A stretch of DNA of 56,964 nucleotides, taken from positions 1 to 56,964 of IMG/VR virus record IMGVR_UViG_3300046507_000328; one strand, 5' to 3'. The position numbers and the translations under genes are program-made. This document shows, piece by piece, positions 7,784 to 49,167 of this stretch (position 1 is the first letter of the stretch; each line of letters starts with the position of its first letter). Under the pieces are notes generated by a model that saw nothing but the letters and a program-made list of their open reading frames with translations, ran no database searches and was not told where the DNA came from. This DNA is from a virus.

Positions 7784-7828
7784 TTGACAATTGATCTTGA
7801 CACTATTACAATTTGACAAATTTGTCAA
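7784..7828. promoter_or_regulatory. Face-to-face promoters with TTGACAAATTTGTCAA operator (immunity switch)
   Basis: Rightward promoter: TTGACA at 7784-7789, 17-bp spacer, TACAAT at 7807-7812, reading into the repressor at 7871. Leftward promoter: TTGACA (minus) at 7823-7828, 17-bp spacer, TAGTGT at 7800-7805, reading into the early operon. The perfect 16-bp palindrome at 7813-7828 contains the leftward -35 and sits at the start point of the rightward transcript. Binding there would block lytic transcription and autoregulate the repressor. A TTACAATTT half-site (7806-7814) resembling the second repressor's operator overlaps both -10 regions. Confidence 0.8.
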
Positions 7829-7870
7829 GATTTACGTCGCGTCAAGCGCGTCAAGAACGGAATTGATTAC

Positions 7871-8473
7871 ATGTCTCGTTTCTCCGATATGCTAGTTGCA
7901 GAGATAAAACGCCGGGAAATCAGCGAGAGCGTCGCTGCCGCCGAGTTCGGCTGGACGAAGCAAGCCTTCAACACTTGGAAGAACGGCGTGCTGCCGCGCC
8001 AGCAATGGTACGGGCCGCTGTCGCGCTTTCTTAATGTCGAGCTCGACGAGGTCGATTCGCTTATCGAGGAAGCGCGAACCGCTACCGAGCCGCCCGAGCC
8101 AACGGCCGGCCGTGTCACCGATCGCAAGGACGGCCGCTTTCATTTCGACGGAATACCGTCCACCCGCTATGCATTCTCCGTTGACACCCGAGTCATGGAG
8201 CCGGCGCTCGTTCTCGGCGCCAAGGCGTGGGCGCAGCCTGGCGTCTGGCCTCATGTCGGCAATGACGTGGTCGTGCACGCCAAGGGCGGGTCGGCATGGA
8301 TCGGCCAGCTTTCGGCGCTGGATGGCGACACCGCTACGCTTAAGCGGCATGCTGCCGGGTCGACCGGTGGAGAGTTGACTGTGCGAGATGTTCTGGCCGT
8401 GCATGTGATCGTGCTTTCTGAGCGCGTGGCTGGCGCCGCCGCTGTTGTGGGTGGCAATAAAAAAATAACTTGA
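7871..8473 (+). CDS. CI-like repressor with XRE HTH and protease-dead S24-like domain
   Basis: 200 aa. Residues 1-55 form an HTH (ESVAAAEFGWTKQAFNTWKNG). Residues about 85-190 align with LexA/CI S24 domains: an Ala-Gly bond (TAGRVTDRKDGRFHF), then YAFSVDTRVMEPAL where active family members have D-x-x-S-M-x-P. Val replaces the nucleophilic Ser, while a candidate general-base Lys survives (TATLKRH). It should therefore dimerise but not self-cleave. The gene lies beside the palindromic operator and is its most likely ligand. It is transcribed rightward from the promoter at 7784-7812. Confidence 0.8.
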   Translation: MSRFSDMLVAEIKRREISESVAAAEFGWTKQAFNTWKNGVLPRQQWYGPLSRFLNVELDEVDSLIEEARTATEPPEPTAGRVTDRKDGRFHFDGIPSTRYAFSVDTRVMEPALVLGAKAWAQPGVWPHVGNDVVVHAKGGSAWIGQLSALDGDTATLKRHAAGSTGGELTVRDVLAVHVIVLSERVAGAAAVVGGNKKIT

Positions 8474-8485
8474 CAAATTTGACGA
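8470..8485. promoter_or_regulatory. Degenerate operator copy after the repressor gene
   Basis: TTGACAAATTTGACGA overlaps the repressor stop codon. The left half and centre match the TTGACAAATTTGTCAA palindrome but the right half has decayed. It could be a weak operator or stop-type site. Confidence 0.35.
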
Positions 8486-8499
8486 ACCACTGGTAATGG

Positions 8500-8691
8500 T
8501 TAATCGTCGCTGTGGTGGCGATAAGGAAATCCGAGGTTCACGGCCTGGCTAAGCCAAGTCTCCTCCCTCGAGATAGTACGAACTGCATTCCGCAAGCCGC
8601 TAAGCAGGTGGTGCTGGCCTTCGGGTCGGCTTGCGAATGTGGTGTTGCAATTCAAGTTTTGCCCCTGTGGTGGGGGAAGCCGGAACGGCAT
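8500..8691 (-). CDS. Possible 63-aa protein
   Basis: The ATG at 8691 is preceded by AAGGAGAGGAG, and a CACCAC element lies further upstream as for accepted genes of this phage. The product is polar, has no recognisable motif and is rich in Pro/Gln/His. A second GGAGGAGAC lies inside the ORF without a start codon, and a 13-bp direct repeat (8605-8617 and 8738-8750) precedes both SD-like sites. The stretch may be a degraded duplication rather than an active gene. Confidence 0.3.
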   Translation of the reverse strand: MPFRLPPPQGQNLNCNTTFASRPEGQHHLLSGLRNAVRTISREETWLSQAVNLGFPYRHHSDD

Positions 8692-8721
8692 GGGGACTCC
8701 TCTCCTTGCGTAGTACGCCAT

Positions 8722-8767
8722 AAAGGGGGCTGCGTTTCAGGTGGTGCTGGCGCATATGGCCCCCTTT
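8722..8767. terminator. Bidirectional hairpin between convergent transcripts
   Basis: AAAGGGGGC (8722-8730) pairs with GCCCCCTTT (8759-8767); an inner TGCG/CGCA pairing extends the stem and the loop contains a CACCAC element on the minus strand. A second hairpin, GACCATC/GATGGTC (8784-8808), and AGGCTGCAT/ATGCAGCCT (8809-8857) lie next to it at the end of the ParB-like gene. Position and A/T flanks suit termination in both directions. Confidence 0.55.
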
Positions 8768-8855
8768 CTGTTTTGGCAATTTCGACCATCCTGTTTGGCA
8801 AGATGGTCAGGCTGCATTCCCTTTTCGGGCATCCGGTGGATGGTGGCGATGCAGC

Positions 8856-9974
8856 CTATGCGGGGTGGTGAGGCCCGCGTTTTTGTTCCTCATAGATTGT
8901 GATTAGCTCGCCAATGTCCCGACGTGAAAGGCACTCTGCCTTCTGGTCTTTTGTTAGGAACGCGAACCTTCCAAGGAATTCGTCGAACGCTTCTAACGCT
9001 TGAGTTACGGCGGCATCGCCGGCCGCTTTTGCGATCTCAGCTACGGGGGACGATAGAGTTACCGGCGCATCAACGACATGATCATCTCTACCGCGTTCTT
9101 GGTGCGCATCTCCTGCAGCCGCGCTGCTCGAAAAAAAGGCCGCTTCGGCGGCAGCCTCCCCGACCGCCATTACCGATTCTCTGTTTTCGGATAACGTTAA
9201 GTCCATCACGGGAATCGGCGCATGGGGAGCATTGTCGTTAGACGGTATTCTGCGATCTTTATTTGGCGCGCGCTTAGGCTTCCCCGCCTTGGCGCTGACT
9301 TGCTCACCAGCGATGGCGCGCTTGATTAGGTCTTTGCGAGTTTCTGGCTCCAGCTTCGCCAGTGCTTCCAATTCCGTTATGGAATTGAGTGACGTGCCTA
9401 CGAGACGAGGCGCTACGGAGCCGATCGCCTTGCCGGCTGTCGCTGCCCTCTGGATTGTCCTCTCTCCCTTGCCTGTGATTTCGGCAGCTGTTTTGGTGAA
9501 GCGGTCAGGCAGTTCGCCATTGTGGCGATCTGCCACCTTGCCACCCGTGTGCTGATTTCCTCTATCGCCGCCATTCTTCGTCTCGGGAAATTCGACTTCA
9601 TACAGCACCTTCCGGCGTGCCGTGGCGTAAACGAATTCTGCAGGCTCCAGGTCGGTGCGAGCCATATTCTCTTCGATCATGGCAAGTTCAGCCATGTTGT
9701 CACTGAGATACGCGACATTGGCGTCTATGCCCTGCCAGCCAAGTTTCTTCGCCGCTTCAAGGCGATGCCTTCCGGCGACCAGTTCCCACTCTTGCGAAGG
9801 CTGCCCTGACTTGTAGACGGTGAGTGGGCGAACGCGGATAGCTGACTGAAGGCCGTTAATGCCCATGCTCATGACGAGCTTAGCAACACCCTCTTCAGAA
9901 ACGGTACGCTTAATGACGTCGTCCCTGAGGTGGATCTCAGATACCTTGACTATTTGATAACTACCCGCGCTCAT
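8856..9974 (-). CDS. ParB-like protein (Srx/ParB N-terminal domain), copy 1
   Basis: 372 aa. Residues 5-105 form a ParB/Spo0J-type N-terminal domain: IVKVSEIHLRDDVIKR, GLQSAIRVRPLTV and the signature ELVAGRHRLEAAKKLGW (GxHR, about 66-82), then IEENMARTDLEPAEFVYA. The middle (about 140-200) has a helix-rich FTKTAAEITGKGERTIQRAATAG segment resembling the ParB central HTH. The C-terminal half is disordered (SNDNAPHAP) then helical. No ParA is visible. It may be a DNA-binding or nuclease-type ParB rather than a partition protein. Confidence 0.75.
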   Translation of the reverse strand: MSAGSYQIVKVSEIHLRDDVIKRTVSEEGVAKLVMSMGINGLQSAIRVRPLTVYKSGQPSQEWELVAGRHRLEAAKKLGWQGIDANVAYLSDNMAELAMIEENMARTDLEPAEFVYATARRKVLYEVEFPETKNGGDRGNQHTGGKVADRHNGELPDRFTKTAAEITGKGERTIQRAATAGKAIGSVAPRLVGTSLNSITELEALAKLEPETRKDLIKRAIAGEQVSAKAGKPKRAPNKDRRIPSNDNAPHAPIPVMDLTLSENRESVMAVGEAAAEAAFFSSSAAAGDAHQERGRDDHVVDAPVTLSSPVAEIAKAAGDAAVTQALEAFDEFLGRFAFLTKDQKAECLSRRDIGELITIYEEQKRGPHHPA

Positions 9975-9978
9975 CTGC

Positions 9979-11139
9979 TTAACCCTGGAACGTAGTGCCC
10001 GCGATGCGGACGTAATCAGTGTCTACTACGTGGATCTGCGTCAGAGTTTTATTGGAGAGCCACGCGTTCCAGGCCGTGGCGGGGACCGCAATGGACTGGT
10101 GCATATCACCTTTGTTCAGTGCGCGCGTCAGCATATCCATGACGAATGTATGCCGAGGGTCGCCCTTCTTGAGGCCGTCGTTCTTCGCAACCCCTGACCA
10201 AAACTCGATCGCTTCGCGCGGCCTGCCCTTGAGTGTCGCAAGTGCAACAGCAGCCACACCAGCGCCGAGCAGCTTGTTTTTGACCTTACTGTCGCCTCGC
10301 TTCAGGCATTCGTCGAAAAGACGCGCCTCATCTGCATATTTCTCCATGAGGCGCAGACGGGAGTCCACAACGCGCGCCAAGAGCACCTCACCCTCCTCGC
10401 GGGCGCGGCCGGTGCGGAAACCAGAGATGATGAACGGCATAGAATTGTAAACGGCTTTTCCGGTCTGCTTAGTAATGCCATGCTTAGCCGCGTAGCCAAT
10501 GGCGTTGAGGATCTGCGATTCAGTTCGCCCGCGAGAGTTGGTGTTGAATTTGTGGAATGCCTGGAGGAAGGACTCCTCGTCGTCGTAGTGGTCGATCTTG
10601 ATGTTCCAGACGATGGAGCAGCCAGACAACGATTGCGCCCGTAGGCGGTGGTTTCCGTCCATTGCCCACAAGCGGCCGAACAGCACGCCAAAACGAAGTT
10701 GCGTTTCATCCATCCAGGCATCGGGCGTCTGCATCATCGCCACTAGGGTTGCGATGTGCTGTTGAGCGGATTGGTGATCGAGTGGCCGGATAGACTGCTG
10801 GACCGGGTGAACGCAGTTGGTCGTCAGAAACAACGACTGCTCTGGCGTCAGTCGGATATCTCCTGCGCGGAGGAATGACAACGCGGAACTGGGATAACTA
10901 TTCAGCGGTTCGCCGCCGTCACCTGGTGCGACAAGCGCAACAACAGCATGGTCAACCGGCGTGGCTGCCGACCTCACGCTCCGCCGTTGTCTCGCCTCCA
11001 CAACAACAGGCTTAGGCGCATCTTCAAGAATGCGCGGCGATGACGCAACAGGTGATGGCGCTGCCCGCTTTGCGAACAACGCCTCAGCCGCATCCTTTGC
11101 GGTCAGAATATTGCGGGGCTGTCTCTGCATGATGTTCAT
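9979..11139 (-). CDS. ParB-like protein with DGNHR motif, copy 2
   Basis: 386 aa, ATG at 11139 with GAGGAGACTTGA before it. The disordered, basic N-terminus (about 1-90) is followed by a Srx/ParB-like core whose signature is LWAMDGNHRLRAQSLSG, then FNTNSRGRTESQILNAIGYAAKHGI. The C-terminus is a helical domain. Sequence similarity to copy 1 is slight, so these are paralogous folds rather than a recent duplication. It is divergent from the S24 repressor gene and 4 bases upstream of copy 1. Confidence 0.65.
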   Translation of the reverse strand: MNIMQRQPRNILTAKDAAEALFAKRAAPSPVASSPRILEDAPKPVVVEARQRRSVRSAATPVDHAVVALVAPGDGGEPLNSYPSSALSFLRAGDIRLTPEQSLFLTTNCVHPVQQSIRPLDHQSAQQHIATLVAMMQTPDAWMDETQLRFGVLFGRLWAMDGNHRLRAQSLSGCSIVWNIKIDHYDDEESFLQAFHKFNTNSRGRTESQILNAIGYAAKHGITKQTGKAVYNSMPFIISGFRTGRAREEGEVLLARVVDSRLRLMEKYADEARLFDECLKRGDSKVKNKLLGAGVAAVALATLKGRPREAIEFWSGVAKNDGLKKGDPRHTFVMDMLTRALNKGDMHQSIAVPATAWNAWLSNKTLTQIHVVDTDYVRIAGTTFQG

Positions 11140-11529: not shown

Positions 11530-12261
11530 ATGAGCCGACTTTCCGATACGTTAACTTCGAAGGCCGAGGAGCTTGGCATCAGCCAGACAGAATTGGCTGA
11601 GCGTACAGGCGTCCTGCAGCAGAGCATCAGCGCGCTATTCAATGGAGATGTCGTGTCGCCGCGCAGGTGGCGTGAGATAGCGCGCGAGCTGCAGATACCT
11701 GAGAGCGATATGCGCGAGATGATGATAGAGGCTGGCCGCGTTGCTGGAAAGACGACGAGGCTCCCGCGGACATTTAAGGTGGAGGACGCATTCCAAGAAG
11801 TGCAGCACCACAAGCAGAATGGGCGCATTGATCTAACGGAAACGCCCGCAGCAACGCGGCCAGCCAAGCTTATCCCAGTGCTCGGCGAGGCTGCCGGCGG
11901 GTCGGATGGCCGCTACTGGTTCAACGGGAATCCGATCGATTATGTCGCATGCCCTCCATCTCTTGATGGCGTGCCGGGGGCATACGCGATTTATGTGGAC
12001 GGCGAATCGATGGCTCCACGCTACCTTCCAGGCGAGGTCGTGTGGGTGCATCCGCATAAGCCGGCTCGTCGAGGCGATGACGTGATCATTCAGATTCGGC
12101 CTAAGGAAGATGGCGAGCCGCCGTATGGCTATATAAAGGAATATGTTGGCTGGTCGGGTAACCTCCTTACTCTTCGACAGCACAATCCAGAATCACAACT
12201 GACATTTGATCGGGATGAAGTTGTAAGCATCCATCCGATCGTTCTTGCCGGGAAGTACTAA
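11530..12261 (+). CDS. LexA/CI-type repressor with XRE HTH and active S24 peptidase domain
   Basis: 243 aa. HTH at about 14-40 (LGISQTELAERTGVLQQSISALFNG). The C-terminal S24 domain has an Ala-Gly cleavage bond (GEAAGGSDGRYWF), the nucleophile in YVDGESMAPRYLPGE, and the Lys partner in YGYIKEYVG. All elements for RecA-stimulated self-cleavage are present, so it should be inactivated on DNA damage. Its HTH residues differ from the other repressor's, implying a different operator. The candidate is the CTACAATTTT/AAAATTGTAG repeat 4 bp downstream on the promoter of the integrase operon. Confidence 0.9.
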   Translation: MSRLSDTLTSKAEELGISQTELAERTGVLQQSISALFNGDVVSPRRWREIARELQIPESDMREMMIEAGRVAGKTTRLPRTFKVEDAFQEVQHHKQNGRIDLTETPAATRPAKLIPVLGEAAGGSDGRYWFNGNPIDYVACPPSLDGVPGAYAIYVDGESMAPRYLPGEVVWVHPHKPARRGDDVIIQIRPKEDGEPPYGYIKEYVGWSGNLLTLRQHNPESQLTFDRDEVVSIHPIVLAGKY

Positions 12262-12264
12262 TTT

Positions 12265-12306
12265 CTACAATTTTCCGTTGACATGGTAAAATTGTAGCCA
12301 TATAAC
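12265..12306 (+). promoter_or_regulatory. Strong sigma-70 promoter with inverted-repeat operator driving the integrase operon
   Basis: TTGACA (12278-12283), 17-bp spacer, TATAAC (12301-12306). The inverted repeat CTACAATTTT (12265-12274) and AAAATTGTAG (12288-12297) brackets the -35 and fills the spacer, so a dimeric repressor bound there would exclude polymerase. The site follows the S24 repressor gene directly. Confidence 0.75.
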
Positions 12307-12368
12307 ACTCCTCAGACGCCCAACCGTGCGTCACCGCCAACGAGGCGGCCACCACTGAGGAGACGACA

Positions 12369-12560
12369 ATGCTCAGAGAGCTTGCTGAAATTGAGGACTA
12401 CATTCCGCTGGCGTGCGCCGCTGGCAGCGCCGAGCCCATGCGCCGCGCAGATTACAAAGCAAAGAAACATCCCCGCCCGCGCAATGTAGATTGCCGCGGT
12501 CGTTTTGCGTTGCGCCACCAGAAGCCGGGCCGCGTGCTGGCAGCGATGGGTGGTGAGTGA
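12369..12560 (+). CDS. Small hypothetical protein
   Basis: 63 aa, first gene after the promoter at 12278, behind the leader hairpin CCGCC/GGCGG, CCACCAC and GAGGAGACGACA. Acidic N-terminus, then a basic Arg/Lys-rich C-terminus (RRADYKAKKHPRPRN). No family recognised. Confidence 0.6.
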   Translation: MLRELAEIEDYIPLACAAGSAEPMRRADYKAKKHPRPRNVDCRGRFALRHQKPGRVLAAMGGE

Positions 12561-12823
12561 TGGGCAACCGCCTTAACGTTGCCGTCGCTGGCGGCAAGTA
12601 CACCTACATTCAACGTGAGGACTATTCGTCGACAGCCCTGCGCTACGGCGAGCCTTGGCCCGCATATGACATCGCGCCGCCTGACAACCTGCACCACGCG
12701 CTTGCCGCAGAGGTTAAGCAATTGCGGGATGGCCTGCGCGCCATCGTCGACGAGTGGGGTCCGGACTCCTACGCAAAAGAGATCGCGCGCAACCTGCTTG
12801 CGAAGCATGGTGGTGCAGAATGA
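12560..12823 (+). CDS. Small hypothetical protein
   Basis: 87 aa; the ATG at 12560 overlaps the previous stop as TGATG. Predicted a short beta segment (VAVAGGKYTYIQRED) then helices (LHHALAAEVKQLRDGLRAIVDEW, KEIARNLLAKHGG). Function unknown; position suggests a lysogeny- or excision-associated accessory gene. Confidence 0.6.
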   Translation: MGNRLNVAVAGGKYTYIQREDYSSTALRYGEPWPAYDIAPPDNLHHALAAEVKQLRDGLRAIVDEWGPDSYAKEIARNLLAKHGGAE

Positions 12824-13061: not shown

Positions 13062-13074
13062 GGCACCCAAAAGG

Positions 13075-13120: not shown

Positions 13121-13151
13121 TTCCAATCAACCACCACAAGAGGAGACCACT

Positions 13152-13376
13152 ATGAGCACACCAAGAAGACACCAGCCAGCACCACGGACGCCGGCAAACA
13201 ACAACCAACCCCTACTCACGATCGAGCGCGCCATCGCCGACGTCCTTACGCCAGCGTCGCTAAGGCAGGTTGCAGAAGCTAACATAAACTGCGGTGCGCG
13301 GCGCGAGCGTCAGGCTCGCAATCTGCTGGCTGTTGCCGAAAGGCTTGAACTGTTGGGCTATAGGAGCGCGGCGTGA
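13152..13376 (+). CDS. Small hypothetical protein
   Basis: 74 aa with the consensus leader ACCACCACAAGAGGAGACC. Disordered Pro/Asn-rich N-terminus (about 1-20), then helical LTIERAIADVLTPASLRQVAEANI and RQARNLLAVAERLELLGY. The next gene starts with a GTG that overlaps its stop. Confidence 0.6.
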   Translation: MSTPRRHQPAPRTPANNNQPLLTIERAIADVLTPASLRQVAEANINCGARRERQARNLLAVAERLELLGYRSAA

Positions 13377-17218: not shown

Positions 17219-17758
17219 CTATGCTGCGTGAGAAATCGAGATTGAGATGTTCTGGTTCGCCGGTTGGAAAAGATTACCTTGCCTGAGTGGCTCATGTCCC
17301 GGAGGGCAATAGAAGCCCATCGAATCCCAGAGAGCATCTGCAAAACGTTCACCCTTCACCCGACAGGCCAGCCTTACGAACTCCATCTCGGCTGAGTCTG
17401 GAACAGATGGCCTTGCTGGCGTGGCCTCTCGTCTCCGAATCTCCGCCTCCATCACATTGAACTGGTTGATGTAGGCGATCTTGAATTTCAGAGCCCTCTC
17501 CCCTGTGAAGCCCATAGCCAGAAGCGTGAAGCCATCCTTGGTGATCTCATAATGGGATGTTGACTGCCCTGTTAAGTCATTGATTTTAAACGGTCGAAAA
17601 TTCGCGACAACGAATTCCGGCTCATAGTCACCAAGATTTCGTATCGCCTCATGGACATGCCGCACTTCCTTGAGGAAGTAAGCAGCGACATCCCGGCTGT
17701 TAGCAACGACGCTTCCGTCCTTTACGGACAGTACGGGCAATCTGATTTGTTCAGTCAT
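17219..17758 (-). CDS. rha: Rha-family phage regulatory protein
   Basis: 179 aa from the ATG at 17758, behind a 10-bp hairpin, CACCAC and AAGAGGAGACTTC. Residues 8-110 match Rha (Phage_pRha): VANSRDVAAYFLKEVRHVHEAIRNL, NFRPFKINDLTGQSTSHYEITKDGFTLLAMGFTGERALKFKI and AYINQFNVMEAEI. Rha proteins interfere with lytic growth in certain host backgrounds and act as DNA-binding regulators. The C-terminal third is variable and contains two Cys. Confidence 0.85.
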   Translation of the reverse strand: MTEQIRLPVLSVKDGSVVANSRDVAAYFLKEVRHVHEAIRNLGDYEPEFVVANFRPFKINDLTGQSTSHYEITKDGFTLLAMGFTGERALKFKIAYINQFNVMEAEIRRREATPARPSVPDSAEMEFVRLACRVKGERFADALWDSMGFYCPPGHEPLRQGNLFQPANQNISISISHAA

Positions 17759-18214
17759 GAAGTCTCCTCTTGTGGTGAAGTCGCCGGCAGGTTTTCCGAC
17801 GACTTGGATATATAGTGTCAACGTTCGTTTTTTACAACTCAGGTCTGCTTAAAATCCCACATATTCGCATCCTAATTATATCAGGTGCCAACAGCACACT
17901 TTTGTAACATCTTAACAACATACATCTAACGCAAGGGCACCCTCATAAATAATGTATTGTCCACTAGCCCGTTTTGCTTATTATTCAACGTGGGCTTGAT
18001 AACCCTGACCGTTTATAGGCATGCCGGAAAAGAGTGCGTGCTGAAACTGTGCGCAGCTTAGCGGCTAGCGCACGCCTTGGCCAATGATGGCCGGGGGCGT
18101 GTGGCTATGTCCAATGATCCCTGCGCGCAGGGAACTAAAAACCCACGGCTCGTCTAAACGGCGTGTTATCAACCCCCGGCTCGGCGCCGTCAGCCGTCTT
18201 GGGGATCAAAGGGA
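17759..18214. promoter_or_regulatory. Intergenic region: rha promoter and AT-rich spacer
   Basis: 456 bp without a supported ORF. The minus strand carries a plausible rha promoter, TTGTAA, 17 bp, TATATA (near 17812-17840), and the leader stem AAGTCGTCGG/CCGGCGACTT just before the SD. The middle (about 17850-17980) is AT-rich. The right part holds the structured segment listed separately. Confidence 0.45.
18030..18205 (+). ncRNA. Candidate structured RNA
   Basis: A GC-rich segment with consecutive stems: GTGCGC-AGC/GCT-A-GCGCAC (18049-18073), GGCC/GGCC around AATGAT (18079-18092) and CCCTGCGCGCAGGG (18119-18132). CCAATGAT occurs in two equivalent loop or flank positions (18081 and 18111), and CCCC/GGGG pairing surrounds 18172-18204. 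It lies upstream of a small plus-strand gene and next to antirepressor-type genes, where phages carry leader or antisense RNAs. The family is not recognised. Confidence 0.35.
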
Positions 18215-18433
18215 ATGTCAGTAGCAATCGACGCAGGGAGAAGAGCGCGAGTAGGCGTTTATAATGCAATATGGAAATTTAGAATCGGGCAGGTAGTTTC
18301 ATTCGGTGAATTGCAGGCAATCGTTCTGTCGAGACAGTGTAGCGCCATGGGGCGCCAGATATTCAATCTATGGATTGCAGAGACCGACGGCCGGCAGATG
18401 CGCTGGGTGCTCGGCAATGCGCTTACGGGATAA
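18215..18433 (+). CDS. Small hypothetical protein
   Basis: 72 aa, ATG preceded by AAAGGGA. Basic N-terminus, then RVGVYNAIWKFRIGQVVSFGELQAIVLSRQ... and IFNLWIAETDGRQMRWVL, predicted mixed alpha/beta. Followed by a terminator, so it is a monocistronic unit isolated between leftward operons. Confidence 0.55.
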   Translation: MSVAIDAGRRARVGVYNAIWKFRIGQVVSFGELQAIVLSRQCSAMGRQIFNLWIAETDGRQMRWVLGNALTG

Positions 18434-18477
18434 GGCATGGCGTGAGGCGCGTGAGGGGATGCGGGAGGAGAAAGAAA

Positions 18478-18499
18478 AACCCGCCATTGCTGGCGGGTT
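18478..18499. terminator. Bidirectional intrinsic terminator
   Basis: AACCCGCCA-TTGC-TGGCGGGTT, a perfect 9-bp stem preceded by AAAGAAA (a T-run on the minus strand), between convergent transcripts ending at 18433 and 18531. Confidence 0.8.
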
Positions 18500-18530
18500 A
18501 TGACTGTCGCGAATTTGAGATGCGGGAAAG

Positions 18531-18752
18531 TTACTGGTTGAGGATGGCGGCTTCTAGTAGCTCCGGTTCGTCATCGCGCATATCGCATCCGGCCAGGTCT
18601 TCAAGATACGCCCTGGCCACATCCGCGCACCTTTGACGCTCTGCGAGGATGGCGCGGGCGACTATGCCTACATTACCCTCTGACGGCATGGCCTCGATGG
18701 TCCCGACAACCTCGCGCGCCACCCGCATTACATCCTCCGGAATCTCACCCAT
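18531..18752 (-). CDS. Small helical hypothetical protein
   Basis: 73 aa, overlapping the upstream kinase gene by 8 bases. Helices IPEDVMRVAREVVGTIEAM and VARAILAERQRCADVARAYLEDL; this style of protein (AILAERQRCA) is frequent in alphaproteobacterial phages. Last gene of the operon. Function unknown. Confidence 0.65.
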   Translation of the reverse strand: MGEIPEDVMRVAREVVGTIEAMPSEGNVGIVARAILAERQRCADVARAYLEDLAGCDMRDDEPELLEAAILNQ

Positions 18753-19419
18753 AACGCCGCAACGCCTCCTCTATCTTGCCGTGCAGTTGTTCAATCGGGC
18801 CGTCGTTCACGATGACCGAATCGGCCAGGAAGTCCAGCCGCTCGCTTGAGTGCGAACCGGCAATGCCGCCGCGACCGTCTAACTTGAAGATGTCGCCACC
18901 CAGCTTGCGGATAGCCTGCGCTTCGTTCGGGTAGCGGCAATCGTCGACGACTACGCGCTTGCCTTCAGACGCAGCCCGCTCGACGCGAGCGCGCCAGAGT
19001 CGGATCCAGAAGTCATCGCCGATGATGTCGCGCCCGAACTGTGTTCCTAGCTGCTGCATAGCATATCGCGGCGTCCTTCCGCACAACAGATGGCTTGGCT
19101 TCTCTTTCAAGTCGCCCTCGATCTCCCTTTCGCTCAGTCCCACCGCCCGAAGCATATCTTTCAAAGGCCCGGCAAACTTCACGAGCGTGTAGCCGTGCTG
19201 CTCGACGAGGTAGCGCGTCGCGGTTGACTTGCCGCTGCCCGCCACGCCAGTGAAGGCGACGACGTCGGGAAGGTTGTCGTTGGCGGCATGATCCCCGCGG
19301 CGCGCACTCGGCTCGCGGGCCTCCACCTTCCCAATCGCCGCGCCGAGCGCGCGCAACTGGTTGTCGTTGGCCGGCACGGCGGTAAGGTCGCCGTCGGCGG
19401 TGAAAACTGGGTTGGTCAT
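18745..19419 (-). CDS. Deoxynucleoside monophosphate kinase-like P-loop kinase
   Basis: 224 aa. Walker A GVAGSGKST (about 58-66) follows an N-terminal extension with two ANDN motifs. Then come TLVKFAGPLKDMLRAVGLSEREIEGDLKEKP, TPRYAMQQLGTQFGRDIIGDDFW and VVVDDCRYPNEAQAIRKLGG, the order found in phage dNMP kinases (T4 gp1-like). It would convert dNMPs, including modified ones, to dNDPs for DNA synthesis. It is coupled to its neighbours by ATGA-type overlaps. Confidence 0.85.
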   Translation of the reverse strand: MTNPVFTADGDLTAVPANDNQLRALGAAIGKVEAREPSARRGDHAANDNLPDVVAFTGVAGSGKSTATRYLVEQHGYTLVKFAGPLKDMLRAVGLSEREIEGDLKEKPSHLLCGRTPRYAMQQLGTQFGRDIIGDDFWIRLWRARVERAASEGKRVVVDDCRYPNEAQAIRKLGGDIFKLDGRGGIAGSHSSERLDFLADSVIVNDGPIEQLHGKIEEALRRYG

Positions 19420-19712
19420 ACTGTCTCCTCAATCTTCGTGGTGGCTTTGGTCTTCGACTGCACCAGCGGCCTGAACCGCGACGCACGGAAAGGCATGTCT
19501 GCCGCTCCGTATCCTTCCGGCCCGTCATCATTGCCCCGGTCTACCTCGAGCAGCTTGATGCCGTAGAAATCGCCGTCGACATAATGCCGGTAGTCGCCAG
19601 CCCATCGCACGGTATATTCCTGGCCGGCGCGAATGCCCTGATCAATGCTGACGTGCTTGAACGTGTCGTCGACGCAGACGACGCGCTCGCCTATGCGGTA
19701 GCGGTAGGTCAT
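19416..19712 (-). CDS. Small SH3-like domain protein
   Basis: 98 aa. RYRIGERVVCVDDTF...GIRAGQEYTVRWAGDYRHYVDGDFYGIKLLEV and a final FRASRFRPLV resemble a small beta-barrel protein common in alphaproteobacterial phages. ATGA overlaps on both sides. Function unknown. Confidence 0.65.
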   Translation of the reverse strand: MTYRYRIGERVVCVDDTFKHVSIDQGIRAGQEYTVRWAGDYRHYVDGDFYGIKLLEVDRGNDDGPEGYGAADMPFRASRFRPLVQSKTKATTKIEETV

Positions 19713-20434: not shown

Positions 20435-20607
20435 GCTGCGGCCTCCTTACTTTCCCAAAACCGGCAATGTTTGGCGCCGATGCCCACTTCCTTCTCCGGG
20501 TAGCCGTCTCGCACCAGCGTGTCTTCCAGCGTCTCGCCGGGCACGGGGTTGTAAACTTTCGGGAAGCCGTGGCGCCATCCGCCGGGCGGGTCGTAAATCG
20601 TCGTCAT
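20431..20607 (-). CDS. 58-aa hypothetical protein
   Basis: ATG at 20607 behind a hairpin with TCACCAG loop, ACCACCAC and AAGAGGAGAATTC; ATGA overlap with the downstream DUF1937 gene. Begins MTTIYDPPGGWRHGFPK and contains a central PGETLEDTLVRDGYPE. Function unknown. Confidence 0.65.
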   Translation of the reverse strand: MTTIYDPPGGWRHGFPKVYNPVPGETLEDTLVRDGYPEKEVGIGAKHCRFWESKEAAA

Positions 20608-20664
20608 GAATTCTCCTCTTCGTGGTGGTGTCTGCGGCCGGCTGGTGACCGGCGGCAGTGGTGG

Positions 20665-22484: not shown

Positions 22485-22633
22485 CACGCCAGCCGCCACA
22501 CCAGCACGCACGGCGGATTGCGGCACGTCTTTTCCAACTGCCGCGTCTCCATCGGCGCTGGCTGGAATGCATAGGTGATGCCGCTGAATAGAAGCGCGGC
22601 TAGCGCTATAACGAGGACTTTGTAATATCTCAT
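22484..22633 (-). CDS. 49-aa secreted or anchored peptide, first gene of operon
   Basis: ATG at 22633 with AGAGGAGAACGCC, first gene after the operator-promoter. MRYYKVLVIALAALLFSGITYA is a signal peptide or anchor; the remainder carries two Cys spaced C-x4-C (TCRNPPC) that could pair in the periplasm. Function unknown. Confidence 0.6.
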   Translation of the reverse strand: MRYYKVLVIALAALLFSGITYAFQPAPMETRQLEKTCRNPPCVLVWRLA

Positions 22634-22681
22634 GGCGTTCTCCTCTAGTTCGTGGTGGTGGCTTTGGTCGTGGTGATTTTT

Positions 22682-22710
22682 ACACTAAATCAATTTGACA
22701 AATTTGTCAA
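22682..22710 (-). promoter_or_regulatory. Promoter with TTGACAAATTTGTCAA operator
   Basis: Minus strand: -35 TTGACA within the perfect palindrome 22695-22710, 17-bp spacer, -10 TAGTGT (22682-22687). The -35, spacer start and -10 are nearly identical to the leftward immunity promoter at 7800-7828, so both operons should respond to the same repressor. Confidence 0.8.
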
Positions 22711-22743
22711 GATGGACAATGGCGGGAGTGGGTTACTAAAAAC

Positions 22744-36700: not shown

Positions 36701-37154
36701 CAGTTGGCTTTTTGCCTTGCGGAGCGCCCTTAATGACTGCGATGCTTGCAAGGGCAGCTTGCCGTTGTCTGGATAGCGCCGCGGTATATTCATCAGCGCC
36801 GATGGCGCCGCTTTTATAAAGCGTGCGAATATCAGAAACTGCAGACTGATATTGCTTAATGGTCGAAAAAAGCGGGCTATACTTAGCGCGCAAAGCGTCC
36901 AGCGCCTTGCCCTGATCGGCAAGCGCGCCGTTCCACTCCTTGGCGGCGCTGGTGCCGATGCCAACCATGGAATTGATGCGCTGCTGTAGCGAGCTGGAGA
37001 TGCCCTTGTCTATCGCTCCGCCAAGCGCAGTAAATTTCTTGGAAATCTTATCTGTAGCGCTGGTAACGTCGCTGTTGAACTTGTCCAGTCCGCGCGACGC
37101 GGCGCCCATGTCTGAGCTGACGGTAAAGACTAGATTATTGTCGTTGTCAGCCAT
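33777..37154 (-). CDS. Tail tape measure protein with C-terminal TIGR02594/CHAP-like peptidase
   Basis: 1125 aa, AAGGAATAAGC before the ATG. The long helical N-terminal two thirds includes a hydrophobic stretch around 180-225 (IPAVLAGGAIAVGASLL) and Ala/Gln-rich coiled coils (about 500-660). At about 785-910 lies a small peptidase-like domain: QTAWCAAFVNSSLAQVGVKGTGS (Cys about 815) and GGHVGFATG (His about 870), as in TIGR02594. A Gly/Ser-rich linker precedes it. It sets tail length; the enzymatic part could digest peptidoglycan during injection. Confidence 0.9.
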   Translation of the reverse strand: MADNDNNLVFTVSSDMGAASRGLDKFNSDVTSATDKISKKFTALGGAIDKGISSSLQQRINSMVGIGTSAAKEWNGALADQGKALDALRAKYSPLFSTIKQYQSAVSDIRTLYKSGAIGADEYTAALSRQRQAALASIAVIKGAPQGKKPTAQNDNEKVAGSNSFVFRNIAQQVNQVAQQGVATGNYLQALAIQVPDILGAFGSIPAVLAGGAIAVGASLLSMESDTKKLDQALKDNADTLDLLKEKYGELTKVTATNVAGGSFVLADARNQKTSIDAVLRNQLGGFVGDINDTRVGSSVYGTNSLKALGNLQSLNGDQKQFAAPVSALLESVKNGHTDLETFNKDVEDLYNNLVKSSDNPQALRATADAVEEIADAAFSSSGKFKPFQDAINLLKVQGIDGLSKFVDQVHKIGEEQGIGKLADELIAKGKDIVQLTQNVEKLNRELQAIDREDTRPGLADRNALTGYVARRAKDLANVNAQFAAEQQTASARTFAERIAAAAASSRAQHPANADEGGGADARAARAVQAEANRQQIELRDAAKSRSDSLNQAIESQQQEIALIGKTAGEQAALRKEYELTSQIRLEAAKDGIPADEAEIARIQQKTAELGRLADAAAKAKLSQDLADHNRLAALPSQERQVATTLQQYGIDNKDLNSPQANQIRQSLQMDDNRQAITGFMTDFKDGLVKNGDSIGKAFGTAISNALMKEADKLWDNLFNQIANVILGTGTSGAATGGGGGIATAGVGVVGKILGGGSSGGGSSSGTSAGAVTSTGSAVDKAMSLFGANENTNNGQINSFLKQGGVDINAAQTAWCAAFVNSSLAQVGVKGTGSLTANSFLNWGTKIDPSKVLKGDVLVEDRGLGATDAGGHVGFATGSTRMFGGQQQVQMLSGNSADSVQTTWVNAMSVQARRATDSANALGKVASSANSTTQGLGQLGQQLGGAGAFPAAPSAGIGGLFSRLFGGGLTSYGSSVAAASPQFAGALASGGVGLFADGGYTGPGGKNTPAGIVHAGEFVVPKHIVDKIGVPALSTMMKGYANGGLVTPALVSAPRAPALRPTMAATGDRGGQPGVLQVHINGANGDDHVRELVKQGVGEGLGQYNQQQQRGGFGTLQSRFNAQKG

Positions 37155-42542: not shown

Positions 42543-42596
42543 GTGGTGGTGTGGTGAATTGGCAGGAAGACCTGCCCTCCGGTGGTTGCCGGGTGA

Positions 42597-44512: not shown

Positions 44513-46452
44513 TATGCCGCCTTATTGAGTGAAAATTCCGGGTCATCCCAAGGGCTCGCCGCGGGCTTGATGTCGACGAAGCCATCAACCGCCGCCCCTA
44601 TTGCCATCGCGCTAGCGACAGCCGGGTCAATGCGAACGGTCGATTTCTTCTTCGAGAACCACTGGTTGCCCATGAGTGGGTCCGTTTCGATCGCAACACC
44701 CATTAGCGCGCCGAGCAGAACGGGCGAGCGGCGAAGCCTGATCCGCTCTTCAAGGATGAGCGTTTCTAGCGCCGCAACCGAGCCAGGCATCCAAAGACCA
44801 AGCGGAGGCTCGAGGCCGGCGTCTTTTGCCGCCTGCACCTTCTCTTCGTCTGGCTTTGCGCGTTTCTTGCCGCCCTGCGGATGCGCAACGGTCTTGATGT
44901 CGACACCATATTCGTCGAGCTCGGCTTCGAACTTGTCGAACGCATATCGGTCGAACGCCAAAACGCCTATGCCGTGCTCAGTGTTGAGGCGAGCAAACAG
45001 CGCAGCAACATGGTCATAGCGAATGCGCTGGCCTTCAGGTGCGTTGATGTAGCCTTGCTCCAACCACAGACGATATGGAACGTGGTCTTGCTTCGACCGT
45101 TCGTCCATCGTGTCGCGCGGCGTCCAAGCCTCAATCCAAAGATCGTATGTAGGCAAGTCCGCTTCCGTGCCATCCTCGCGCTTTACGCTCTTGGTGCCGG
45201 TCTCCACGGCGAATGCTGCGGCTGTCAAATCCTTTGCGCCGGACAAATCGAGACCGGCCGCGCAGATCTTCTTGCCCTTGTGCTCAACATACGGGTCGAA
45301 GTCGACCATCACCTTCTCAAGGATTGGCCGCGGTATCCAAGCCGTGTCGGCTTCAGTCCAAACGCAGAAGTGCAACCGCAAAATGCCGTTTCGCTTCGAC
45401 GGAATGTCTTTGGCCTGGTTTACAACGCCAGCCAAATAATCGTGCTTCAGCGTCACGCCAAAAAGCGGATTCGCCTTCTGCCAGCATGTCGGATCCGTAA
45501 AAGGATCGTCGTCCTTGTCGAGCGCACACACATACGAAAACGTCGTGTCGTCGACCACCTCACCGACGTAGGTGAAATCGTCATCCGGCGTTTGCGTGCC
45601 GGCCGCCGCCTTGACTGCGTGCTGGTGTTCGTCCCAGCAAATCGAATTCCTATCGCTGCCCGAGTTCGTAATCATGAACAGGAGCGGCTGGCGCCGGAAC
45701 TTAAAGCCGCGCTCGAGCATCTCGATGACCTTGCCATCAGGATGCTCGTGGATTTCGTCGCATAGCGCGATATACGGACGTGGGCCGCTGTGCGCGCCTT
45801 CGCGCGAGATCGGCCGAAAGAAGGACCGCTTCTTGAGGTACGAAAGATTCCAAACCGGGTTGCCACCCGACGGCGTCAGCTTCGACTTGAGCGAAGGCGA
45901 CTGCTCGTACATGGCGACGGCGTCGCGGAACAGAACGAAAGCCTGGTCCTTATTGGCAGCGGCCGCATAGATTTCAGCCGCAGCCTCGCCGTCGGATGTT
46001 AGGCAGTAGTGCCCGATGCCAGCAGCAAGCGGCGACTTGCCGTTGCCTTTGCCTTCCTCGATGTAGGCGCGTCGAAAGCGTCGCAGGATTGCGCCGTCAG
46101 ATTCTACGCGCTTCCATCCGAAGATTGAGCCGATCTTGAACTGCTGCGAGATGTGCGGATTGAACGGCCGCCCTTCGAACTGGCCGCCATTGAGGCGAAG
46201 CACAGCCGGGAAGAACCGCAATACACGACTGGCCGCCTCCGGATCCCAATGGATGCCGCGAGCCGGGCCGTTCTTGCGGTCGTCTTTATGTCGACGGCAC
46301 GCGTTGCGCACATGCGGGCCGGCGACAATCTCGCCTTTGATTACGGCTTCTGCATATTCGTCTACGGGACCAGTCGGATAAGGTGGATTGAAATAGGCCG
46401 GGAGCTCGACGCTAGTCGAAGAACTCGTCGGCCGGATCCTTCTTTTCGCCAT
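44512..46452 (-). CDS. terL: Terminase large subunit
   Basis: 646 aa from MAKRRIRPTS (ATG at 46452, GGAG nine bases upstream), overlapping the small-subunit gene by 41 bp. RAYIEEGKGNGKSPLAAGI is the Walker A region and PYIALCDEIHEH the Walker B/catalytic carboxylate. The nuclease domain has CAAGLDLSGAKDLTAAAF (first Asp), LAFDRYAFDKFEAEL and DPAVASAMAIGAAVDG. It is of the HK97/cos-type Terminase_1 lineage and packages DNA through the portal. Confidence 0.93.
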   Translation of the reverse strand: MAKRRIRPTSSSTSVELPAYFNPPYPTGPVDEYAEAVIKGEIVAGPHVRNACRRHKDDRKNGPARGIHWDPEAASRVLRFFPAVLRLNGGQFEGRPFNPHISQQFKIGSIFGWKRVESDGAILRRFRRAYIEEGKGNGKSPLAAGIGHYCLTSDGEAAAEIYAAAANKDQAFVLFRDAVAMYEQSPSLKSKLTPSGGNPVWNLSYLKKRSFFRPISREGAHSGPRPYIALCDEIHEHPDGKVIEMLERGFKFRRQPLLFMITNSGSDRNSICWDEHQHAVKAAAGTQTPDDDFTYVGEVVDDTTFSYVCALDKDDDPFTDPTCWQKANPLFGVTLKHDYLAGVVNQAKDIPSKRNGILRLHFCVWTEADTAWIPRPILEKVMVDFDPYVEHKGKKICAAGLDLSGAKDLTAAAFAVETGTKSVKREDGTEADLPTYDLWIEAWTPRDTMDERSKQDHVPYRLWLEQGYINAPEGQRIRYDHVAALFARLNTEHGIGVLAFDRYAFDKFEAELDEYGVDIKTVAHPQGGKKRAKPDEEKVQAAKDAGLEPPLGLWMPGSVAALETLILEERIRLRRSPVLLGALMGVAIETDPLMGNQWFSKKKSTVRIDPAVASAMAIGAAVDGFVDIKPAASPWDDPEFSLNKAA

Positions 46453-46795
46453 CCGGTTTAGCTCCAGCCTTGCTGGCATCAGCCGGCGTCGCGCCCATTT
46501 GCCCGTAGCACTGGCGCAGAAGGTTCATGGCTTGCACGCCAACGTCTTCGCCCTTCATCATCCGGCCGCGTATGTTCGCGGCGATCGCCAGGTGCCCTCG
46601 GTGGCTCCAGTTGAGCCAAGGCACTTCAGATGCAATTTCGCGCCATGCCTGTTGCGCGTGTTCATTCAGCCATTCGAAAGGCTCGCCGACGCTCTCGTCG
46701 ACGGCTGGTTCGTTGCGGCTTTCAAATTTGGTTTTTTGCTTGTCGGCGTAGCCGGTAATTTCGGCTTTGGCCTTTGGCGTTCTCGGCCTAGCCAT
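46412..46795 (-). CDS. terS: Terminase small subunit
   Basis: 127 aa. FEWLNEHAQQAWREIASEVPWLNWSHRGHLAIAANIRGRMMKGEDVGVQAMNLLRQCYGQMGATPADASK resembles P27-type small terminases. The acidic C-terminus (KKDPADEFFD) overlaps terL. It would recognise the cos region immediately upstream. Confidence 0.8.
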   Translation of the reverse strand: MARPRTPKAKAEITGYADKQKTKFESRNEPAVDESVGEPFEWLNEHAQQAWREIASEVPWLNWSHRGHLAIAANIRGRMMKGEDVGVQAMNLLRQCYGQMGATPADASKAGAKPDGEKKDPADEFFD

Positions 46796-46813
46796 ATTTT
46801 TTCCATTGCTATC

Positions 46814-46829
46814 TTGACAAAATTGTCAA
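46814..46829. promoter_or_regulatory. Operator-like palindrome ahead of terS
   Basis: TTGACAAAATTGTCAA differs from the main operator only at its centre. A leftward -10 is poor (ATGGAA at 17 bp), whereas the rightward direction has TAGAGT at 16 bp, so the promoter polarity is uncertain. Confidence 0.6.
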
Positions 46830-47079
46830 TTTTGATAGAGTGCGATTATAGGCTGTAGAGCATCGCTCCGGCCTCAGCACCCCCACACAAAACCTCAACT
46901 TTTCAATCGAAAAAATGTGTACGAATGACCCCCGCCGGTACCCGGCTGGTGCGACTCCAGAGATTCGACCCACCCCTCCCGGCCAAACCTTCCATCATAC
47001 CACGTTTTTCCATGCTATGTCAACAACAAAATGCAACAAAATCATCGATTTATCTATTTATTTTCATGTGATGGGTGAG
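46830..47079. other. Intergenic region between HNH and terS: candidate cos site
   Basis: No ORF is supported. In HK97-like phages with this gene order (HNH, terS, terL) the cos site lies here. GCCGG-TAC-CCGGC (46934-46946) gives a short dyad suitable for a staggered cut and is followed by GC-rich then AT-rich DNA. The exact site cannot be fixed from sequence alone. Confidence 0.4.
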
Positions 47080-47379
47080 CTAAATCGGCCATCCATCCGC
47101 GCCATACCGCACCACCGTCTTGCCGTTGTCCTCAAGCTGGCCTCGTGAGGAATGGCACGGTTTGCATGTCGAGACGAATGGGCCATACCAGAACAGGTAA
47201 AGGTCGCCTCTATGTGGGGTTGCGTGGTGCACTTCGGTAGCGGCCGTGACTTCTTCGCGCTCTAGGCACCACTCGCAAAGTGGTTGCATCGACAACTGCG
47301 CATGCCGCAGCGCTTGCCAACGTGCGCTTTTATAGAGGCGCCTGTACTTGGCCGCTTCTTCGCTGCGGTGGTCAGTCAT
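47080..47379 (-). CDS. HNH endonuclease (packaging-associated)
   Basis: 99 aa. CEWCLEREEVTAATEVHHATPHRGDLYLFW...STCKPCHSSRG is the HNH fold with two zinc CxxC pairs. Small HNH proteins beside terS are needed with the terminase for cos cleavage in HK97-like phages. Confidence 0.85.
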   Translation of the reverse strand: MTDHRSEEAAKYRRLYKSARWQALRHAQLSMQPLCEWCLEREEVTAATEVHHATPHRGDLYLFWYGPFVSTCKPCHSSRGQLEDNGKTVVRYGADGWPI

Positions 47380-47733
47380 GCATCACCAGAAAGCAAAAGC
47401 GGCGAGGAGCCTGCATAACAAGCTCTACTCGCCGCACGATCGCCCGTCGCCAGAGGAGGAGATATAGCGCCAGGAGATGGGGAGCGAAGATGGCTGCGTG
47501 TCACAAACACCACGACAGCATAGTCGGCGGCCAGAGCTTGTGGTTTCTGGTTATCGCCTAGCCAGCGTCCGTCACCGGAGTGGGGCATCTTCGTTTTCTT
47601 GGATAGTTACCCGCAGCGTTCAGCGGCTGCACTAAATGCAGCATGACGGCGGGGCGGTCGCAACCGCAAAGGGGCGAGAACTAATTGAATAGTTCTCTCA
47701 ACCCTTGGTGACTTGAGTGCGCATGGCATACGG
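47380..47733. other. Hairpin-rich intergenic region
   Basis: 354 bp without a convincing gene. Stems: GCGGCGAG/CTCGCCGC (near 47400-47436, with inner GAGC/GCTC), GCTGCA-CTAAA-TGCAGC (47626-47642), GCGGT/ACCGC (47654-47667) and GAGAACTA-ATTGAA-TAGTTCTC (47676-47697). The last would end the transcript of the 47734 gene. The others could be cos-flanking sites or a small RNA. Confidence 0.45.
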
Positions 47734-48684
47734 TCACGCGGCACGACTGCGAAAGCGCGACAATGCGATGGACTCCAAAAGCTTTTCGCGCTTATCGATC
47801 TCTTGCCATTTTACAGATATGCTGCCTATAGCCATTCCAACAAGAATGCGCCCGCCAACTGCCGGCTGCGTTTTCTCGCCTTTTTGCCGGCCAATCTCAG
47901 TGTATGATTTACCGCCAAGCACGGCGTCTTCAAAAGGCTCGACCAGTGGGCCAAGCGATGACCGTAGCTCTGCAAGAATAGGTTTTGCATCAACGTGCGC
48001 ATTGAGCACTTCGTCTGTCAGCTTTACATGCAGGCTTTCCGTCTTGACGACGCTGCCAGCGGCTATGTTGTCGTTATCGGCAACGACGGTTCTTCGGGCG
48101 GGCGTAGCGTGAGCGCCCTTGCTCTTTTTAATCTTGGACGATTGTTTGATTTCGCCATCGGGGATTTCTTTCCAACCGCTGGCTGCTGCAGCGTCAATAT
48201 CGGCCTCTGGCGTCAATCGCTTGCTAACGCGAACAACCTCGCCGCCGTCAGACTTGCTGTAGTCCAGGCCCTTGAGTGGCTCGGCTTCGCATAGGGCGAC
48301 AAGCTTGCGATAACGCAGAACAACGGCAACAGCATCGTTCTTCTCGTCACGACGCAGCGCCTCAAGCAGAGGGAAATCCTCGCTGCGGCTCTGCACAACC
48401 GACGGATCACCGATAGACTGGCGCTTTGCTATTACCTTGATCATCTTGCCCATGGCGCGCTTCTCCTCCTTGGCCTTCTTTGCAGCGGCCACACGTCCTG
48501 CTGCTCGATCCTCCGGTGTCGATTGGCGGCGAGGCGTGCGGATGTATGGCGTGTCGGCAATAGGCTCCCATTTGCCATCGACTTTGTGAAAGCGGGTCTT
48601 GGTTCGGTATGGGTGCGGCTGGTCGCCGGTGTACGCTACTCGGCCTGTTGCATCCAAAACGTCATCGTCATCGCTATCGGCCAT
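47734..48684 (-). CDS. Hypothetical protein with possible C-terminal HTH
   Basis: 316 aa. The start at 48684 has AAGGGG six bases upstream; 48690 is in frame but too close to it. Acidic N-terminus (MADSDDDDVLDATG), a basic helix AAGRVAAAKKAKEEKRAMGKMIKVI and a C-terminal stretch PFEDAVLGGKSYTEIGRQKGEKTQPAVGGRILVGMAIGSI that looks like an HTH. It has its own operator-controlled promoter at 48728-48756, so it may be a regulator of the neighbouring late genes. No family recognised. Confidence 0.6.
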   Translation of the reverse strand: MADSDDDDVLDATGRVAYTGDQPHPYRTKTRFHKVDGKWEPIADTPYIRTPRRQSTPEDRAAGRVAAAKKAKEEKRAMGKMIKVIAKRQSIGDPSVVQSRSEDFPLLEALRRDEKNDAVAVVLRYRKLVALCEAEPLKGLDYSKSDGGEVVRVSKRLTPEADIDAAAASGWKEIPDGEIKQSSKIKKSKGAHATPARRTVVADNDNIAAGSVVKTESLHVKLTDEVLNAHVDAKPILAELRSSLGPLVEPFEDAVLGGKSYTEIGRQKGEKTQPAVGGRILVGMAIGSISVKWQEIDKREKLLESIALSRFRSRAA

Positions 48685-48727
48685 TTTCATCCCCTTAAAT
48701 CGTCGTGGTGCTATTGCGGTAGGTGTA

Positions 48728-48756
48728 GTTATATGATAATTTGACAAATTTGTCAA
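48728..48756 (-). promoter_or_regulatory. Promoter with perfect TTGACAAATTTGTCAA operator
   Basis: Minus strand: -35 TTGACA inside the palindrome 48741-48756, 17-bp spacer, -10 TATAAC (48728-48733). The best -10 of the operator-linked promoters; it reads into the 47734-48684 gene. Confidence 0.82.
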
Positions 48757-48784
48757 GGTGGACGGGTTGGCGATGAACAAAGAA

Positions 48785-48806
48785 AAGGCCGCACGATGGC
48801 GGCCTT
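48785..48806 (-). terminator. Intrinsic terminator
   Basis: Minus strand AAGGCCGC-CATCGT-GCGGCCTT followed by TTCTTTG, after the 48832 gene and before the next promoter. Confidence 0.75.
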
Positions 48807-48831
48807 GGTGTGGGGGTGGTTGGTGGCGAAG

Positions 48832-49068
48832 TTAGAACCAGTTTGGCTCGCCAGCATCGTTGAGGCGCGGAAGTAGTTCCCGACCGCGGCTGTCGTAGCG
48901 GTCGTCGCATGAGATGCCGTAGCGACGGGAAATGCCTTCGTCGCTGTCGTCTTCAGCGTCGGCGCTCATCGTATCCATGTATTCGATGTTGAGATCTTCG
49001 GCGATATCCGTCGCTGTCATCCCGTTAGCCAGCATGTCTGCGATGCGCTCGATTTCTTCTCTTCTCAT
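48832..49068 (-). CDS. Small HTH-like acidic protein
   Basis: 78 aa from the ATG at 49068 (CACCAC then GAGGCGAGAC). RREEIERIADMLANGMTATDIAEDLNIEYMDTM resembles an HTH of the sigma-4/resolvase kind; the rest is acidic (DAEDDSDE). It is alone between an operator-promoter and a terminator, suggesting a regulator expressed when the repressor is lost. Confidence 0.6.
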   Translation of the reverse strand: MRREEIERIADMLANGMTATDIAEDLNIEYMDTMSADAEDDSDEGISRRYGISCDDRYDSRGRELLPRLNDAGEPNWF

Positions 49069-49105
49069 GTCTCGCCTCCTCAGTGTGGTGCGTTTCGGTA
49101 ATTCT

Positions 49106-49167
49106 GTTCTAAGCCGACTCGACAAATTTGTCAACATGGACGAAATGAAAAACTACAAATTTGTCAA
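49106..49167 (-). promoter_or_regulatory. Promoter with two spaced operator copies
   Basis: Site 1 TCGACAAATTTGTCAA (49119-49134) contains the leftward -35 TTGACA with TAGAAC (49106-49111) 17 bp away. Site 2 ACTACAAATTTGTCAA (49152-49167) is 33 bp upstream, about three helical turns. The pair would allow cooperative binding of two dimers on the same face of the DNA. Confidence 0.75.

Follow-up and report, generated by a model that had tools for sequence, protein, structure and literature searches.

Which protein reads the palindrome TTGACAAATTTGTCAA, copies of which are scattered over a virus record of 56,964 bases (IMGVR_UViG_3300046507_000328, positions 1 to 56,964; hereafter the window, meaning the whole stretch analysed), and what is controlled from these sites? 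The window is related to Rhizobium phage 16-3 and to RHph_TM3_3_14B, the gene order around its repressors is similar to that in 16-3, and two repressors are encoded in it: P0001 (7871-8473) and P0003 (11530-12261), the latter a homologue of the 16-3 C repressor. Our comparisons favour P0001 as the best candidate for the reader of the palindrome, and we suggest that the non-virion genes are most likely under two levels of control, one exerted by a protein repressor and the other by a small RNA.

With up to three mismatches allowed, TTGACAAATTTGTCAA has seven sites in the window, against 0.13 expected from dinucleotide shuffles, and none of 100 such shuffles gave seven. Three sites are exact (7813, 22695 and 48741), and the others carry one mismatch (46814 and 49119), two (8470) or three (49152):

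7813-7828, minus strand: candidate operator, perfect palindrome; -35 of a leftward promoter with -10 TAGTGT at 7800-7805
8470-8485, plus strand: candidate operator TTGACAAATTTGACGA at an RNA promoter; -10-like GGTAAT at 8492-8497
22695-22710, minus strand: candidate operator, perfect palindrome; leftward promoter with -10 TAGTGT at 22682-22687
46814-46829, no strand assigned: operator variant TTGACAAAATTGTCAA; no clear leftward -10
48741-48756, minus strand: candidate operator, perfect palindrome; leftward promoter with -10 TATAAC at 48728-48733
49119-49134, minus strand: operator variant; leftward promoter with -10 TAGAAC at 49106-49111
49152-49167, no strand assigned: weak operator-like site, 33 base pairs (bp) from 49119, one arm intact

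All are intergenic except the 8470 site; this one is oriented rightward and overlaps the stop codon at the end of the 7871-8473 gene. The 7813 site belongs to the promoter of P0002, the gene in the Cro position, and also lies upstream of P0001; the 46814 site stands 19 bp ahead of the start of the small terminase gene; and a leftward -10 was looked for at 49152, with none found. An original prediction, made from the sequence of the window, had listed six of these sites, all at the correct coordinates, and had rightly given four of them promoters with exact 17-bp spacers to TAGTGT, TAGTGT, TATAAC and TAGAAC. Its list was incomplete, as it missed the 8470 site and the RNA that this site would control; it was this site that led us to the RNA, whose putative promoter it overlaps.

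The sites are a property of the phage family. Dispersed palindrome matches were seen in all of the first ten records with a P0001 homologue that were scanned, including 16-3 (eight sites) and TM3_3_14B (six); near-complete genomes of relatives hold five to nine each, and X2_25, NV1.1.1 and AP-16-3 also carry them. Of 40 further homologue-bearing records, 36 contain an exact copy of the 13-mer TTGACAAATTTGT, the reversed control giving no matches, and two of the four negative records (L055 and L110) have loci with AAAATT/AATTTT variants. Two of the sites form a conserved pair around the P0001 gene, one between it and the divergent Cro-position gene and one at its 3' end.

At 7813, 22695, 48741 and 49119 the leftward promoters consist of a -35 TTGACA, a 17-bp spacer and a -10-like hexamer. 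TAGTGT agrees with the -10 consensus at only three of six positions, yet the promoter geometry is real across the family: TANNNT stands at spacing 17 in 58 of 135 sites (43%) and in at most eight (<=6%) at any other spacing tried, the 135 being distinct oriented TTGACAAATTTGT sites pooled over the family with the RNA promoter class left out. Conservation in all ten first-scanned records and this fixed geometry support the dispersed promoter-operator network that the original prediction had proposed. In three of the leftward operator-promoters, GTCCA also stands just upstream of the -35, beyond the palindrome (22710-22720, 48757-48765 and 49135-49143).

The dispersed arrangement recalls the stoperators of cluster A mycobacteriophages, where one repressor acts at many sites over the genome (PMC9283540). 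Were the window sites of this kind, the bound repressor would halt passing RNA polymerase rather than initiation, which would suit 46814 and 49152, where no clear promoter is seen. However, stoperators are asymmetric, and the repressor binds them as a monomer and halts elongation as well, whereas the window sites are palindromes on promoters whose 17-bp geometry is enriched across the family. We consider a stoperator role unlikely, and the distinction already drawn in the prediction, between stoperators and symmetric sites on promoters, is borne out.

Three proteins of the window could be considered as readers of the palindrome:

7871-8473, plus strand: P0001, candidate repressor reading the palindrome; 200 amino acids, homologue of 16-3 p070
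11530-12261, plus strand: P0003, homologue of the 16-3 C repressor, with helix-turn-helix (HTH) and S24 parts; 54% identical to C
7453-7803, minus strand: P0002, small HTH gene in the Cro position, under the 7813 promoter; leader CACCAC..GAGGAGAC

P0001 is 44% identical to p070 (44-48% over p070 and EVB67_036 of TM3_3_14B). Its N-terminal XRE/Cro-type HTH gave a profile match to the LexA-annotated HTH 2kpj (1.5e-7) and a weak one to the 434 repressor; the predicted model superposes on the 434/P22 HTH at about 2 Å, and its best Foldseek matches are a lambda-186 hybrid repressor, LexA and the lambda repressor (6e-5 to 3e-4). By eye, the S24 catalytic Ser and Lys of autocleavage are missing, and there was no Peptidase_S24 match; where P0003 has VDGESM, P0001 has VDTRVM (Ser to Val, again by eye), and its relatives read similarly. 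As modelled, P0001 is a CI/LexA-shaped repressor that lacks the S24 protease residues.

The operator follows the DNA-binding domain of P0001 through the family. Operators with symmetric arms go with W[ST][KQ]Q[AS]F types of the P0001 helix and those with one relaxed arm with QQT[FY] types, and AAAATT operator centres occur mostly with an SQQ-type helix, with few exceptions such as L054. L009 and L010 share an identical perfect operator with the window; there the P0001 domain is 78-83% identical to that of the window, whereas the C domain is only 27% identical. A C homologue is present in RHph_Y25, Rivra, RHph_I3_18 and RR1-A, four rhizobial phages that were not among the P0001 matches of a tblastn search; these controls hold no palindrome sites beyond one stray near-match, and the RNA and leaders described below are lacking there too, apart from stray matches. 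P0001 is favoured over C because the operator tracks its domain, the C domain is swapped without a change of site, and phages with C and no detected P0001 lack the sites apart from the stray near-match. The choice of the 7871-8473 product by the original prediction, made there from adjacency, is thus favoured by the family comparison, with binding itself predicted only.

That prediction did not mention P0003 as a second repressor of the window, and one might suppose that P0003 reads the dispersed palindrome, with a third spacing of half-sites. The window does have a C homologue, and the annotated C operators of 16-3, which have ACAA and TTGT half-sites in common, are of unequal length, 12 and 14 bp. 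Apart from the swapped domain and the siteless C-bearing phages, however, the conserved site pair flanks the P0001 gene and not c. The ImmC-type arrangement of 16-3, with sites tied to c and its promoters, was not found for the palindrome, the remaining sites being dispersed. P0003 is probably not the reader, and we regard this assignment as very unlikely. Just after the C-repressor gene, at 12255-12300, an inverted repeat CTACAATTTT...AAAATTGTAG surrounds a TTGACA; placed like the left operators of 16-3, it is probably the C operator of the window. Reading of the palindrome by P0002, the divergent neighbour of P0001 and itself under the 7813 promoter, appears less probable again, as L013 keeps dispersed sites although the P0002 homologue found there is without the N-terminal HTH. 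The Cro-position proteins also have a conserved C-terminal stretch like PHNGGCSTTSG.MPVS, the HTH part being absent in L013. P0001 as the immX repressor was rejected, since immX of 16-3 maps elsewhere (18306-18740).

The sequence that follows the 8470 site is conserved behind the P0001 homologues that were examined, in 84 gathered loci, and we read it as a structured non-coding RNA that starts directly behind the stop codon of P0001, in the same orientation, family-wide. Its parts in the window are as follows:

8501-8657, plus strand: conserved non-coding RNA, core; 150.5 bits with our covariance model R1
8511-8517, 8558-8565 and 8607-8613, plus strand: loop UGUGGUG, GUCUCCUC and loop GGUGGUG of this RNA
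8656-8790, plus strand: second, diverged tandem copy; R1 41.5 bits

The second copy carries UGUGGUG, CUCCUC, AGUACG, GGUGGUGC, a terminator-like stem and a U-run; among the 84 loci tested by motif, such a tandem copy was seen in the window only. From the -35 of the RNA promoter to the first loop the distance is 39-41 nucleotides in 53 loci, and in Agrobacterium-type relatives, which retain the -35, the operator has moved into the spacer, still covering the RNA promoter.

The structure was assessed on 40 sequences (alignment A2) and 32 pairs, which were set by hand because automatic alignment and folding mis-registered helix 2; they were taken from single sequences of the same set, so that the pair counts lean toward the unslid structure. 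Standard pairs make up 85.4% at paired positions, as opposed to 69.4% after shuffling, double changes occur in 27 of the 32 pairs (193 double-change cells against 61 shuffled), and covariation is 0.440 against 0.173 shuffled and at most 0.158 with the structure slid. The stems vary, and the UGUGGUG and GUGGUG loops and the UCUCCU stretch are invariant or nearly so. An excess of G-U (136) over A-C (35) at paired positions gives the strand of the RNA; an antisense reading was rejected, as its consensus fold is weaker and the G-U bias goes against it.

At the Rfam gathering score no family was found in the window, where two chance-level matches lie near the RNA. R1 finds the RNA once, rarely twice, per genome in relatives of the window, in 16-3 at 36875-37026. 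Of 299 Rhizobiaceae genomes, 23 gave a match at E<=0.001, many of these matches being weak or partial. Weak second matches were seen in L084 (9849-9946, 19.4 bits) and L265 (10762-10895, 14.7 bits). Diverged forms of the RNA occur in L241, L255, L238 and L260, which come from Rhizobiaceae genomes and phage records. The short loci examined there showed no clear homologue of P0001, which suggests that the RNA is more widespread than the repressor.

What this RNA might act on is indicated by a leader, CACCAC..GAGGAGAC-N-ATG (also written CACCACAAGAGGAGAC), which precedes 13 genes of the window. CACCACA is complementary to the UGUGGUG loop and GAGGAGAC to GUCUCCUC, so that the RNA presents what is found in trans-acting anti-Shine-Dalgarno (anti-SD) small RNAs, an apparently exposed anti-SD stretch complementary to many ribosome sites. 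The leaders are:

220-233, minus strand: leader CACCACAAGAGGAG, ATG at 214
2601-2614, minus strand: leader, ATG at 2594
3058-3073, minus strand: leader, ATG at 3051
7016-7035, minus strand: leader, start GTG or ATG near 7008
7740-7763, minus strand: leader of P0002, ATG at 7734
12350-12362, plus strand: leader CACCAC..AGGAG, ATG at 12369
13132-13145, plus strand: leader CACCACAAGAGGAG, ATG at 13152
17764-17777, minus strand: leader, ATG at 17758
19425-19443, minus strand: leader, ATG at 19419
20613-20630, minus strand: leader, ATG at 20607
22640-22675, minus strand: leader downstream of operator 22695, ATG at 22633
49076-49090, minus strand: leader downstream of operator 49119, ATG at 49068
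50731-50759, minus strand: leader, ATG at 50725

The pattern CACCAC-N1-25-AGGAG occurs 14 times in the window, just before start codons, where 0.54 occurrences are expected, and 0, 0, 1 and 0 times in the four C-bearing control phages; relatives, 16-3 included, also carry leaders ahead of start codons. Only one of 94 leaders in six phages falls in the virion-gene block (0.008 against 0.37 per kilobase), with block limits taken from annotation and, for the window, set by us. Among the matches listed in a scan of viral contigs for CACCACNNGAGGAGAC, most are scattered single matches, probably due to chance, and only a few of the records behind them also have the RNA.

In diverged lineages the two partners differ from the main lineage in matching ways. 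G040, with the loop UGUGGUA, has TACCAC and CACCAC leaders in a ratio of 7:5, compared with 34:620 elsewhere (p=1e-6). In G061a and G341 the RNA has CUCCUCGUGU and 14 of 24 leaders read CACGAGGAG (also given as ACACGAGGAG), compared with 1 of 205 (p=3e-15), and in G063 the RNA has UUGUAGCUCCUC and 5 of 11 leaders read AGGAG[CT]NA[CT], compared with 2 of 241 (p=1e-6). When the RNAs were permuted among seven genomes, 8 of 5040 permutations paired as well as the true assignment. By these comparisons, RNA and leaders have changed together in at least three lineages. Such joint changes speak against the idea that the leader is a family-specific translation signal and nothing else, with the complementarity of the RNA a coincidence, a decoy or a protein-binding site. 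In favour of that idea, the main-lineage loops are nearly invariant, a situation in which the co-change test is powerless, and no covariation with leaders is visible there; moreover, whole-RNA duplex energies (against shuffled RNA) are uninformative, because long duplexes ignore internal structure. We find it doubtful as an explanation of the leaders.

We propose that TTGACAAATTTGTCAA would be the operator of P0001, a repressor distinct from C, and that a P0001 dimer, once bound to a site, would occlude the -35 and shut the promoter off; one protein could therefore silence several separate operons along with its own control region. The 8470 site, at the 3' end of the P0001 gene, would govern the promoter of the structured RNA of roughly 150 nucleotides. 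This RNA would offer its UGUGGUG loops and exposed GUCUCCUC for pairing in trans with the two-part leader, CACCAC..GAGGAGAC, at the ribosome sites of many non-virion genes, a block of translation being the most likely outcome. Binding, repression, transcription of the RNA, the direction of the translational effect and the timing are what we infer from sequence. As to timing, we prefer an order in which P0001 is released, the RNA rises with the early operons and the early genes are then shut off. The same parts could also work differently, the RNA being the 3' end of the P0001 transcript in the lysogen, where protein and RNA would keep the prophage silent; its start directly behind the P0001 gene, in the same orientation across the family, would fit such an order. 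However, the RNA has a promoter-like sequence of its own under the operator, in Agrobacterium-type relatives as well, and we regard the lysogen order as the less probable of the two.

Several observations weigh against our proposal. The 46814 site is without a clear promoter on its leftward side; the LexA-like half of P0001 comes from fold comparison only, with low whole-length template-modelling scores of about 0.27-0.37, and P0001 matched no family among Pfam and PHROG models. The Fisher tests were applied to motifs that had first come to notice in these very data, and there are few divergent lineages, each with one or two genomes. For the main lineages, the swap matrix is not diagonal, RNAs of other lineages often pairing equally well or better, and genes with a leader did not stand out in the whole-RNA duplex calculation. 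With these points taken into account, we still consider it likely that a P0001 operator network and an RNA blocking leader-bearing mRNAs exist together. Somewhat more cautiously, we lean toward the broader proposal that a phage small RNA switches translation of the phage's non-virion genes across the whole genome, by way of a two-part leader that these genes share and that co-evolves with the RNA. The RNA would be connected to the repressor network of dispersed operators, in a widespread group of rhizobial temperate phages with 16-3 among them.

Decades of work on the immunity of 16-3 have centred on C and immX, and these are the regulators annotated in its record; p070, the palindrome sites and the RNA stand there without regulatory annotation. 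Phage 16-3 resembles the window in its P0001 homologue, its C, its eight sites, the RNA and the leaders, and differs in that its annotated regulation lies with C and immX, not p070. In the openly licensed literature that we searched, we found no description of dispersed sites of a second repressor or of the small RNA. Dispersed operators under one repressor are already known, and the nearest functional parallel to those of the window is found in the c1 operators of P1 and the conserved inverted repeats of phiC31, which lie dispersed at lytic promoters, with repressors and sites not known to be related to those described here; we know of no companion RNA with a shared leader in either system. 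Among RNAs, the rhizobial anti-SD small RNAs AbcR, NfeR1/alpha-r14 and MmgR are hairpins with an exposed anti-SD aimed at ribosome sites of mRNAs (PMC7143759). They are host-encoded, whereas the window RNA is phage-encoded and its apparent targets are phage genes with the two-part leader. OOP, sar, 24B_1, VpdS and PreS are phage-encoded RNA regulators of phage development (PMC12197685); they are described there as acting on a single transcript or a small number of transcripts, or on processes of the host, whereas the leader that the window RNA would address stands across most non-virion operons.

If our proposal is true, the 16-3 family has a second repressor regulon and, by way of one of its operators, a small RNA that would silence many phage mRNAs at once. 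Control at two levels, with a DNA-binding protein at one and an RNA at the other, would be a new design for the decision between lysis and lysogeny. The matched changes of RNA and leaders mean that it could be tested directly in Sinorhizobium, using a phage that is already available.

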